This document shows positions 11-13,522 of a DNA stretch of 13,569 bases, one piece after another (position 1 is the first letter of the stretch; each line of letters starts with the position of its first letter). The stretch lies in the NCBI GenBank assembly GCA_018830405.1, contig JAHJSF010000176.1, forward strand, positions 1 to 13,569. The letters are read 5' to 3'. Source of the DNA: Nitrospinota bacterium (GTDB lineage Bacteria > Nitrospinota > Nitrospinia > UBA9942 > JAHJSF01). The position numbers and the translations under genes are program-made. The notes under the pieces are model-generated. The model had not been told where the DNA came from. It did not search any database and saw nothing but the letters and a program-made list of their open reading frames with translations.

Positions 11-45
11 CTCTGTGCCTCTTGTGTCTCAGTGGTTAAAGACTA
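11..45 (+). repeat. Dispersed repeat abutting the ppiC stop codon
   Basis: Read on the plus strand, this stretch ends in GTGGTTAAAGACTA, and the final CTA is the complement of the TAG stop codon of the isomerase gene. The same layout recurs at 1146-1173 and 4231-4266. It resembles a low-complexity intergenic repeat common in environmental bacterial genomes (short CTCTGTG/CTCAGTGG units). It has no coding potential. Confidence 0.55.
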
Positions 46-321
46 ATCTCTTTTTGTAATTTCGATTAAATGATACCCAAACTGAGTCTTAACCGGGCCA
101 TGAACCTTACCTATTTCTTCGGAGAAGACAACCGTATCAAACTCCTTAACCATCTGCCCGGGGGTAAACTCTCCCAAGTCTCCTCCCTTACGGCCGGACG
201 GGCACTCAGATTTTTTCTTGGCTATATCACCAAAGTCGGCTCCCCCCTCTATCTCCTTTTTAAGGTCGTTACACTCTTTTTCTGTTTTAACAAGTATGTG
301 ACGCGCTTTCGCCCTAACCAT
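43..321 (-). CDS. ppiC: Parvulin-type peptidyl-prolyl cis-trans isomerase (PpiC-like)
   Basis: This 92-residue protein is a single parvulin domain with no signal peptide or membrane segment, so it should act in the cytoplasm as a cis-trans prolyl isomerase. It carries the family hallmarks: the opening ARHILVK strand, the CPSGRKGGDLGEF segment, GQMVKEFD, and the closing TQFGYHLIEI strand. From memory these line up nearly end to end with E. coli PpiC (93 residues). An in-frame ATG lies two codons upstream (325-327), but the GGAG ribosome site directly abuts it. That site sits 6 nt before the ATG at 319-321, so I place the start there. The gene ends at a TAG that is part of a dispersed repeat. 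No functional link to the neighbours is evident. Confidence 0.92.
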   Translation of the reverse strand: MVRAKARHILVKTEKECNDLKKEIEGGADFGDIAKKKSECPSGRKGGDLGEFTPGQMVKEFDTVVFSEEIGKVHGPVKTQFGYHLIEITKRD

Positions 322-420
322 AACCATCTCCTAATTTTAGATTTTGATTGAATGCAATTTTGTCTAATTGCCTATGGGGATAAGGTTATCAGATATGGGG
401 GGCAAATAAAACAGTTGGAA

Positions 421-470
421 TTAGAACAGATAAGGAATAATAACAATCAACCCAATTATTGCCGCGCCTA
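421..470 (-). pseudogene. Detached copy of the 3' end of the DgkA-family gene
   Basis: These 50 bases repeat 1171-1220, the last 50 bases of the intact lipid-kinase gene, 750 bp away in the same orientation. From 422 to 470 there are two mismatches in 49 bp. In frame, the copy encodes the same C-terminus (GAAIIGLIVIIPYLF) followed by a stop. Both internal differences are synonymous (ATC/ATT, TTT/TTC), and the stop is TAA instead of TAG. Similarity ends abruptly at 470/1220, and the left flanks (below 421 and below 1171) do not match. It is either the native kinase 3' end displaced by an insertion, or a remnant of a duplicated kinase gene. Confidence 0.85.
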
Positions 471-477
471 CAGCCTC

Positions 478-1020
478 TCATTTTTGTTCTTTGTTCACAA
501 CAAACCCGATAGGTTTTTTCTTTGTCGGTTTCGGGGATATCATAAGTTCGCGGATGGCCTCGAAGACGACTTTGAACTGGGTGTCGTATTTATTTTCAAG
601 AGCAGAGAGTTTGCGGGCCAGATCTGCATGGCTGGAGATTATCTGCCTGAGTTGAACAAAGGCCCGCATGATGGCAATGTTCACCTGAACAGCTCTTTCG
701 CTACGCAGTACACTAGAGAGCATGGCTACCCCCTGCTCGGTAAAGGCGTAGGGGGGATAGCGGCGGCCTCCCCAACTTGAGGTCACAGATTGTGACCTCA
801 AGAGATCAAATTCATTTTGCGTAAGCTGAAACATGAAATCAGCGGGGAAGCGGTCTAGGTTCCGCTTGACAGCCTGCACGAGAACCTTGGTCTCGACCTC
901 GTAGAGTTGCGCCAAATCCTCGTCGAGAATCACTTTGTCTCCTCTGACAGGCAGTATGAGTCGGGTGACTCTCTCAATAGGGATTATGGTGCTATCTATT
1001 TTCTTGTTGCGAACAACCAT
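478..1020 (-). CDS. ORF6N-domain DNA-binding protein
   Basis: This 180-residue protein has an N-terminal ORF6N domain at about residues 18-110. Visible hallmarks are the [20 protein letters not shown] opening, then [33 protein letters not shown] and the helix around [14 protein letters not shown] charged, probably coiled-coil region (about 112-160) follows, and the protein ends in the short KKPIGFVV tail often seen in the family. ORF6N domains occur in phage and mobile-element proteins, typically as DNA-binding or antirepressor-like modules, often with KilA-N or BRO domains; many bacterial chromosomes carry stand-alone copies. It probably binds DNA, but the target is unknown. The start ATG has a GGAG site about 10 nt upstream. 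The gene lies between two direct copies of the kinase-gene 3' end, which suggests it arrived as a mobile cassette. No integrase or transposase accompanies it. Confidence 0.87.
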
Positions 1021-1145
1021 ATCATAATATCTCCAAATTATTTTGAGGTGGAATTATCTCCGGTAAAATTCGGCAAATTATTAGCTATGGATCATATCAT
1101 AACTGTTTGATGATAATTGAAAAAGAAGGGGAATCAAAATAAACC

Positions 1146-1173
1146 ATCTGTGTTAATCCGTGGTTAAAAACTA
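1146..1173 (+). repeat. Dispersed repeat abutting the DgkA-family stop codon
   Basis: On the plus strand this reads ATCTGTG, TTAATCC, then GTGGTTAAAAACTA, where CTA is the complement of the kinase TAG stop. It matches the layout at 11-45 and 4231-4266. It occupies the start of the 150-bp gap between the kinase and ORF6N genes. I see nothing else definite in that gap apart from A+T-rich sequence that could hold the ORF6N promoter. Confidence 0.5.
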
Positions 1174-1220
1174 AAACAGATAAGGAATAATAACAATCAA
1201 CCCGATTATTGCCGCGCCTA
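1171..1220 (-). repeat. Direct repeat, kinase-internal copy (partner of 421-470)
   Basis: This is the 3'-terminal 50 bp of the intact DgkA-family gene. It pairs with 421-470 as a direct repeat bracketing the ORF6N gene, with a repeat-to-repeat period of 750 bp. The arrangement resembles left and right attachment sites of elements that insert at the 3' end of a gene and restore it. No recombinase is present to support that mechanism directly. Confidence 0.8.
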
Positions 1221-1533
1221 TTGATGAAATAAGAACCGCTCCGGCGGCGACATCTTTGGCCTTTTCGACCAAAGGATGAAATTCGGGGGAAGTAACATCG
1301 GCCAGAAGTTCAAGTGATGTGTTCATTGCCTCGGCCACCCAGACGGCAACAATGGCCACAATAATAAATGACCATTCATCTCTCGTAAAACCAAAATAGA
1401 ACCCGACTAAGACAACCGCTATTGTAGCTGAGGCGTGTATCCAGGCATTGTGCTGAGAGGCCAACATTCGCCCAATGCCTGTAAAGGCAAATCGGAAGCT
1501 TCTTAATCTGTTTCTAAAACTGAATTCTTTCAT
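1171..1533 (-). CDS. Diacylglycerol/undecaprenol kinase family membrane protein
   Basis: At 120 residues this matches the usual size of the DgkA family, small trimeric inner-membrane lipid kinases that phosphorylate diacylglycerol or undecaprenol with ATP. Three membrane helices are visible, at about residues 34-50, 54-72 and 96-117. The family signature EAMNTSLELLADV lies in the second helix region, followed by KAKDVAAGAVL, the conserved K/D/A stretch. In the N-terminal motif usually written ExNxxIH, this protein has QHNAWIH, so a Gln replaces the Glu; I recall this variant from other proteobacterial-type homologues. The substrate cannot be decided from sequence. The ATG is 12 nt after the flavoprotein stop with only a weak ribosome site, so translational coupling is likely. 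The last 50 bp are duplicated at 421-470. Confidence 0.87.
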   Translation of the reverse strand: MKEFSFRNRLRSFRFAFTGIGRMLASQHNAWIHASATIAVVLVGFYFGFTRDEWSFIIVAIVAVWVAEAMNTSLELLADVTSPEFHPLVEKAKDVAAGAVLISSIGAAIIGLIVIIPYLF

Positions 1534-6886: not shown

Positions 6887-7729
6887 TTAGGCAAACTTGG
6901 CTTTAAGCTTTTCGATATCAACGTCATAACCTATTTTCCTGATATTCTCAACTAAGGTCTTGGGGGTGGTCTTTTCGGTATCAAAGAGGATAGAGGCCTC
7001 TGTAGCAACAAAACTAACAGTTACTTCGATTACCCCTTCGCCCCTTCTTAGGCCATTCTCTATGATGAGGGCACAGTCGACAGAAGTCATTCCCAAAATG
7101 GGTAAATCAATAATTCGTTCGCCCGTGACCGCTGGCGGTTTGACAGGGGCAGGGGTTTCGACAGACACAGGTTTGTCAACCGGGCGGGGAGGGATAACAT
7201 CGGGCACCTTAATCTTGGCTGGAGGAATCTCCTCTTTAGGGGGCTCTTCCACGACGGTTGGGGGAGGAGCTTCTTTCTTCTCTTCCTCTTTCAAATACTC
7301 TTCCGGAACTACCGCCCCATATCCGGCCGCCTCCACGGCCGCAACAACATCTTTGATGGTCGAATAGCGGGGCATATATTCGGCGGTGAGAAGGTCGGTA
7401 GAGATGTTGACCGATGCCTCCAAAACCCCCTCAACTTTTTCAAGTACACCTTTTTCCACATTGTGGGCGTCTTCTTTGGTGTTCATACCGGTAATGGGCA
7501 ATTCAATCTTGGTGTGGGCAACGTCATAACCTAATTGCCTGAGATTCCCAACTAGGCCCCTGATGGTGGCTTTTTCGGTATCAAAAAGGATGGATATCTC
7601 TTCGGTGTCTACGCTAACGGTTGCTTCAATTACCCCTTGTCTTCTTCTTACGCCTCGGGCTATATTGTTGGCAAAGCTAGTGCTACGGACCATTCCCAAA
7701 ACAGGTAACTCAACGATTCGGTCAGCCAC
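6887..7729 (-). CDS. Triple HMA-domain protein lacking CxxC copper sites
   Basis: The 280-residue product has three HMA folds: about residues 5-72 (copA HMA1-like), 73-143 (HMA2-like) and 205-272 (HMA1-like). An acidic, proline-rich linker (about 150-203, several PP pairs) separates the second from the third. The metal-binding GMTCxxC has become GMVRSTSF, GMNTKEDA and GMTSVDC, so the protein keeps only one cysteine and should not bind Cu(I) in the usual way. A GTG at 7733-7735 also opens the frame, but the GTG at 7727-7729 aligns with the copA start (GTGGCTGACCGA against ATGGCTGAACGA), with a shared AAGAAGGA upstream. The frame ends just before a decayed fourth HMA, so it looks like the surviving N-terminus of a duplicated ATPase. 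Whether the protein still has a role, such as a scaffold or a partner of CopA or CopZ, is open. Confidence 0.8.
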   Translation of the reverse strand: MADRIVELPVLGMVRSTSFANNIARGVRRRQGVIEATVSVDTEEISILFDTEKATIRGLVGNLRQLGYDVAHTKIELPITGMNTKEDAHNVEKGVLEKVEGVLEASVNISTDLLTAEYMPRYSTIKDVVAAVEAAGYGAVVPEEYLKEEEKKEAPPPTVVEEPPKEEIPPAKIKVPDVIPPRPVDKPVSVETPAPVKPPAVTGERIIDLPILGMTSVDCALIIENGLRRGEGVIEVTVSFVATEASILFDTEKTTPKTLVENIRKIGYDVDIEKLKAKFA

Positions 7730-7759
7730 AGCCACCCCTTCCTTCTTTGTTGTTAGACT

Positions 7760-13234: not shown

Positions 13235-13274
13235 TTAACCACTAAACCACGAAACACACTAAAAACACTAAAAG
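13235..13274 (-). repeat. CACTAAA/CCACGAAA dispersed repeat
   Basis: On the plus strand it reads TTAACCACTAAACCACGAAA followed by short CACTAAA units. Its complement (GTGGTTTAGTGGTTAA) resembles the repeats at 11-45 and 1146-1173, but here it is inverted and not next to a stop codon. Confidence 0.45.
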
Positions 13275-13285
13275 ACCCAACCTCT

Positions 13286-13315
13286 TGTCATTCCCCGATT
13301 TAATCTGGGAATCCA
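13286..13315. repeat. GTCATTCCCC palindromic repeat, copy 1
   Basis: TGTCATTCCCCGAT and ATCTGGGAATCCA form an imperfect palindrome with a TTA centre. The same element recurs at 13440-13470 in direct orientation. This REP-like palindrome type is widespread in intergenic DNA of environmental bacteria. Confidence 0.65.
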
Positions 13316-13330
13316 CTTACCAAAAGATTT

Positions 13331-13439: not shown

Positions 13440-13470
13440 TGTCATTCCCCGACGCGATCGGGGAATCCAG
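13440..13470. repeat. GTCATTCCCC palindromic repeat, copy 2
   Basis: TGTCATTCCCCGA and TCGGGGAATCCA pair around a CGCGA centre, a better palindrome than copy 1 at 13286-13315, and they share the same outer arms. Confidence 0.65.
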
Positions 13471-13522
13471 TTCTACCATCCCCTTCTCGCCCCCTATAAT
13501 AAGGTCTTCTCATCCTTTGCCT

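Follow-up and report, generated by a model that had tools for sequence, protein, structure and literature searches.

An ORF6N gene between two copies of a dgkA gene end, and its likeness to displaced carB ends in Limisphaerales

How did an ORF6N gene come to lie between two copies of the 3' end of its neighbor while that neighbor stayed intact? The question is raised by the window, i.e., the whole stretch of 13,569 nucleotides that was analyzed (contig JAHJSF010000176.1 of a Nitrospinota bacterium). On its minus strand an intact diacylglycerol kinase-family gene, dgkA (1171..1533; 120 aa; PF01219, E = 1.1e-29), is followed by a spacer of 150 bp from the dgkA stop codon to the ORF6N start (1021..1170; 30% GC), an ORF6N gene of 180 aa (478..1020; PF10543, E = 3.7e-34) that matches PADLOC candidate family PDC-S05 (E = 2e-57), and, on reading of the sequence, a 7-bp junction (471..477). 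The last 50 bp of dgkA (1171..1220) then recur as a direct repeat at 421..470 on the same strand, 47 of the 50 bases being identical and the two starts lying 750 bp apart, just as an earlier note, made from the sequence alone, had claimed. The spare tail, 16 codons ending in TAA, thus begins 7 bases past the ORF6N stop codon. The identity of the two copies ends 2 bases past the dgkA stop codon, and their flanks are otherwise unlike. Behind the spare tail lies a gene for a PpiC-type prolyl isomerase (43..327, minus strand; PF13616, E = 9e-23), presumably the native downstream neighbor of dgkA.

The window repeat is far beyond chance. A blastn comparison of one flank with the other gave E = 2e-17, and the ungapped score was 43, while a score of 40 was reached by only 0.5% of 1384 random intervals drawn from ORF6N loci. 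The copies differ at three sites (ATC/ATT, TTT/TTC and the stop codons TAG/TAA), all of them synonymous (3 synonymous and 0 nonsynonymous differences, P = 0.017); codon comparison thereby bore out the note's reading of two silent internal changes and an exchanged stop codon. Open reading frames and a domain search showed no gene besides ORF6N and no integrase or recombinase between the repeats (421-1220), again as the note had it. The base composition of dgkA showed no shift towards that of ORF6N, and 50 bp with three changes are too little to tell a native dgkA copy from an imported one.

The genome to which the window belongs (G000) is a metagenome-assembled genome of 1.42 Mb in 185 contigs with 87% completeness. 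The search that the note had proposed, for further ORF6N genes flanked by copies of neighboring gene ends in the same genome, returned none, and the ORF6N gene of the window is the only one there. A gene-order search for an empty site among order-level relatives yielded dgkA genes that were just 30-34% identical, with none of the neighbor genes of the window nearby. Several other features of the window were also observed. The spacer begins, directly behind the dgkA stop codon, with a dispersed, simple-repeat-like sequence, TTAACCACGGATTAACACAGATGG (1144-1167), a second copy of which, with 3 mismatches, separates a HigA-like gene from another gene on contig C184 of the genome (408-431); sequences similar to it occur at 1-43 and 13235-13279 of the window. 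Palindromic repeats of the form TGTCATTCCCC...GGGAATCCA are found at 13286-13318 and 13440-13472, and they resemble repeats of the dRS3 or REP kind, which are small, interspersed and widespread. Beside a copper-type P-ATPase, a 282-aa protein (6887-7735, minus strand) carries three heavy-metal-associated domains, all of which apparently lack the usual CxxC metal-binding pairs.

The encoded ORF6N protein scored 117.3 bits against PF10543, for which the cut-off is 27.8, and is thus a member of the ORF6N domain family. It also matches anti-repressor PHROGs, and its sole other Pfam match is a weak one to Phage_pRha. The predicted model consists of a small mixed fold and a long helical tail (mean pLDDT 72); a fold search with this model gave no significant structure match, and no nuclease was among the matches. 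The idea that the protein is a hidden nuclease found no support in the Pfam, PDB sequence or fold searches and was rejected. Neither the sequence nor the predicted model hints at catalysis. Relatives at 57-69% identity occur singly and are scattered over many phyla, and the ORF6N tree scatters the phylum labels with 42 changes, compared to a minimum possible of 21, a pattern that fits frequent transfer but does not prove it. Judged by titles and abstracts, the papers found to mention ORF6N reported no link between these genes and gene-end duplications.

The arrangement found in the window is not confined to it. A total of 173 ORF6N loci from many phyla with sufficient flanking sequence were surveyed for the best ungapped direct repeat between both sides, with a threshold score of 17. 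Direct repeats bracketed the ORF6N gene at 30 of these loci (17%), compared to 34 of 1384 random intervals from the same loci (2.5%) and 16 of 420 other genes in them (3.8%; Fisher P = 1e-7). The excess was also found for flush geometry: the downstream copy started within 12 bp of the stop codon at 15 of the 173 ORF6N loci vs. 1 of 420 control genes (P = 7e-8), and at 0 of 27 PIN toxin loci. The counts include tandem ORF6N arrays (L085, L146, L072 and L108) that also bear repeats at the ORF6N end; when these arrays were left out, 9 of 169 loci, by an approximate count, remained flush vs. 1 of 420 (P = 8e-5). In the arrays the genes are only about 45-60% identical to the query, whereas the stretches of 30-50 bp behind their stop codons hardly differ from one another. 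More diverged tails were also sought at the protein level; that search gave too many chance matches and was excluded from the counts.

The repeated sequences of the clear cases outside the arrays are 3' ends of neighboring genes, i.e., dgkA in the window, hsdM in L045 and L054, the N-half gene of carB, carB(N), in L048, a short gene in L182 and ruvX in L192, and each of the six repeats ends at the gene's own stop codon. At the two hsdM loci the ORF6N gene sits between hsdM and hsdS, and the hsdM tails of L045 differ by 3 synonymous and 10 nonsynonymous changes. At L192 the intact ruvX gene faces ORF6N in convergent orientation, with the scrap on the upstream side; the ruvX copies are identical at 41 of 42 positions, and a simple target duplication would leave this one-base difference likewise. 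The relative G393, which has ruvX without ORF6N, was considered as a clean empty ruvX site and rejected, as its left flank is unlike that of L192. By eye, no shared DNA motif was seen at the conserved C-terminal IGF end, where codon use varies. The junctions, too, showed no conserved end sequence.

Genes other than ORF6N, and sequences other than gene ends, show related arrangements. GxxExxY genes (PF13366) behave alike, with 10 of 29 loci bracketed and 4 of them flush, mostly with CACAGAG-type simple repeats. GxxExxY (PDDEXK_3) genes at L215, L219, L220, L221, L226 and others lie flush between direct copies of simple repeats of the CACAGAG or GGATTAACACGG type, and at one GxxExxY locus the repeated sequence is an 85-bp palindromic repeat. 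At L062 the start of a transposase gene is copied upstream of ORF6N (-111 to -57 relative to ORF6N; the other copy at +431), so gene starts are repeated as well as gene ends; the transposase is presumably of the REP-associated type.

The carB case (L048) comes from the Limisphaerales genome G394, and the search of its order was extended to carB(N) loci. The 3' end of the carB N-half gene proved to be a recurrent insertion site in Limisphaerales: one or more displaced carB tails were found at 24 of 69 carB loci, which were scanned up to 4 kb downstream. ORF6N is the cargo in G394 and G436, and G441 has a degraded or variant copy. Other loci carry ParE/RelE-type pairs, PIN with an antitoxin, HicB-like proteins, an AbiEii-like nucleotidyltransferase, an acyltransferase or DNA methyltransferases, and most of the cargo is of toxin-antitoxin or defense type. 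ORF6N is therefore one kind of cargo rather than the agent, and the notion of an ORF6N cassette, as put forward at first, is too narrow. The spare carB tails begin at a few recurring points. One of these, codon R99 of the query, is shared by 6 genomes with differing cargo, and other clusters lie near -62, -346 and -510; some of the shared start points must reflect common descent. Whatever the cargo, a distance of 1-11 bp separates the end of the last inserted gene from the R99 scrap. At carB(N) loci such as L315, L378, L383, L386 and L387, an older carB scrap with a CTCTCAACCATGAACTCTCAAC-like sequence in front of it follows the last inserted gene or the carB stop codon at a distance of about 35 bp, which suggests layers left by successive insertions.

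The carB tails were compared with the ordinary alleles of the order, to which in G415 the working tail shows an identity of 0.79 and the spare tail one of 0.93 (0.97 at most); the corresponding values are 0.78-0.81 and 0.92-0.94 in G419, and 0.76 and 0.84 in G394. The working tails of these three genomes, however, resemble one another at 0.85-0.93, and those of G415 and G419 are shared among carriers at 0.88-0.96. The foreign tract starts at one common place, about 420-440 bases upstream of the stop codon, in G415, G394, G419 and G411. In G415 the spare tail starts there as well, with about 27-29 bases at the junction (AGCTTCGAGCCGAGCATTGATTACGTCGT) identical in the two copies. Past this core the working copy turns foreign while the spare copy stays ordinary, the pattern of left and right junctions left by an insertion that put its own gene end in place of the old one. 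The working and spare tails of G415 differ by 68 synonymous and 0 nonsynonymous changes over 105 codons (P = 8e-42 under neutrality), and the corresponding counts are 51 and 7 in G403 and 19 and 5 in G394. Such mostly synonymous differences imply that both tails evolved as functional ends of different alleles. Ordinary sequence has since taken the place of part of the foreign tract in G411, G403 and G436. As judged from these sequence comparisons, at carB in G415 and G419 the working tail is imported and the native tail is displaced.

By analogy with carB, the arrangement in the window would have arisen when incoming DNA, bringing its own last part of dgkA, then the spacer, then an ORF6N gene that ended at the right edge of the insert, recombined with the resident dgkA within the shared gene end. 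The resident gene would then end in the incoming version (1171..1220, presumed imported from the repeat match and the carB case) and remain intact, while its original last ~50 bp would have been displaced behind ORF6N and would persist as the spare copy at 421-470. The exchange may have taken place over the short run of identical bases at the junction, by homologous recombination of the host or through a recombinase or nuclease acting from elsewhere; short-core homologous recombination, one-sided illegitimate joining and a site-specific step catalyzed in trans are the candidate routes. We regard such a displacement of the native gene end, with the imported end restoring dgkA, as the likeliest reading of the window and give it somewhat better than even chances, in view of the geometry, the flush junction, the exclusively synonymous differences and the analogy with carB. 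Insertion at the 3' end of a host gene with restoration of that gene, as the earlier note had envisaged it, is thus supported in kind by the excess of bracketed ORF6N genes, the flush geometry and the imported and displaced ends at carB, and for the window itself by analogy. Against it stand the even base composition of dgkA, the mostly nonsynonymous hsdM changes of L045 and the single-base ruvX difference of L192. The main fact that displacement leaves unaccounted for is the flushness of the last inserted gene with the R99 scrap. A wider proposal is offered only tentatively: bacteria may harbor a class of minimal cassettes, each made up of a new 3' end for one particular host gene and one or two selfish or defense-type genes (ORF6N, toxin-antitoxin or PDDEXK) flush at the right edge. 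Such cassettes would enter that gene end with no enzyme of their own, either moved in trans or by recombination over short homology.

Other processes could leave a similar product. Homology-facilitated illegitimate recombination, in which one side of the incoming DNA pairs with dgkA and the other end is joined randomly inside the resident gene, would yield the same arrangement with no element and no fixed ends. It is known in bacteria, where it has been invoked to explain the orphaned 3' ends that line up in T6SS and Rhs arrays (PMC5361080), and the varied carB cargo and the several start places of the spare carB tails agree with it. The homologous side is clear. The junction on the other side, however, is flush and recurs, which does not look random: random joining predicts neither a junction 1-11 bp past the stop codon of the last inserted gene, nor six spare carB tails that start at the same codon behind different cargo, nor the shared start of the foreign tract and the spare tail in G415. 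We consider this explanation rather unlikely for the window, though the foremost of the alternatives. A tandem duplication of dgkA alone, or of a region with both dgkA and ORF6N, after which most of one copy was lost, would account for the window repeat without any transfer, and the earlier note had named a largely lost duplicate of the kinase gene as the simpler alternative. The window copies, however, differ only synonymously, the flush geometry recurs at unrelated genes, and at carB this explanation was rejected because the two tails are different alleles, as their synonymous excess attests; for the window we hold it to be improbable.

Insertion with a long target-site duplication, i.e., a staggered break and fill-in that leaves copies identical at birth and diverging later, suits flush ends and the nearly identical ruvX copies of L192, and the direct repeats around the GxxExxY genes look like duplicated targets. 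Yet about 75% of the differences should be nonsynonymous under neutral decay, and those observed were 0 of 68 in G415, 7 of 58 in G403 and 5 of 24 in G394, so that a decayed target duplication is refuted for these three; moreover, the repeats stop at the stop codon in the six gene-tail cases found first. For the window such an origin is likewise improbable. That the repeat is a product of chance or of misassembly is scarcely credible. A MAG in 185 contigs with 87% completeness does invite caution; on the other hand, the E value of the repeat speaks against chance, the longest identical runs (16 and 29 bp) were judged too short to misjoin contigs under usual k-mers, and the same geometry is found in many independent assemblies. 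Displacement of the native dgkA end thus remains our preferred reading. ORF6N genes and toxin-antitoxin modules are small, patchy genes that spread over phyla without visible transposons. If they do share a recurring, gene-preserving route of entry, displaced gene ends would provide a simple mark of such insertions, and the route would explain hybrid housekeeping genes such as those with imported carB ends. The Limisphaerales carB locus offers a system in which this could be tested.

Among known systems, several share part of this architecture. The ORF6N proteins of PADLOC family PDC-S05 have the same domain and length as the protein of the window. Gene 3' ends are the integration sites of integrative elements and genomic islands that restore the gene, e.g., SGI1 at trmE (PMC8409611). 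Like such islands, the inserts described here have a gene 3' end as their target, direct repeats at both ends and a restored reading frame, and gene-end direct repeats are present at both borders in the window. Unlike those islands, which carry an integrase gene, they measure 0.6-3 kb and have no integrase in the open reading frames examined. In T6SS immunity arrays and Rhs loci, gene ends are displaced by homology-facilitated illegitimate recombination (PMC5361080), and there, too, a conserved upstream part of the gene anchors the incoming DNA while old 3' ends pile up downstream. The displaced parts in those systems are functional immunity genes or effector ends, whereas those found here are non-functional scraps of housekeeping or restriction genes, and the flush junctions and recurring start points also set the present cases apart.

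The mobile ORF elements (mORFs) of fungal mitochondria, found in the atp6, atp9, cox2 and nad3 hybrids of Glomus and in atp6 of Allomyces macrogynus, are arranged in the order of a foreign C-terminal end that restores the gene, a mobile ORF and the native end (PMC3630166). Their native ends are closer to relatives than the inserted ends are (91-98% vs. 64-81%), and in the atp9 and cox2 elements the native end starts 1 bp past the ORF (PMC3630166). Similarly, the native end would lie directly behind the ORF in the window (7 bp), and it does so at carB in G394 (1 bp) and G415 (about 2 bp), with identities to relatives in G415 of 0.93 for the native and 0.79 for the working end. The mORFs encode LAGLIDADG or GIY-YIG homing endonucleases (PMC3630166), while the cargo here consists of the DNA-binding ORF6N or of toxin-antitoxin genes in bacterial chromosomes with no endonuclease seen; membership in the fungal type therefore fails on this point, and the architectural likeness stands. 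The fungal mitochondrial mORFs are the nearest known architecture, and if the displacement proposed here is correct, an arrangement tied to homing endonucleases in fungal mitochondria would extend to bacteria.
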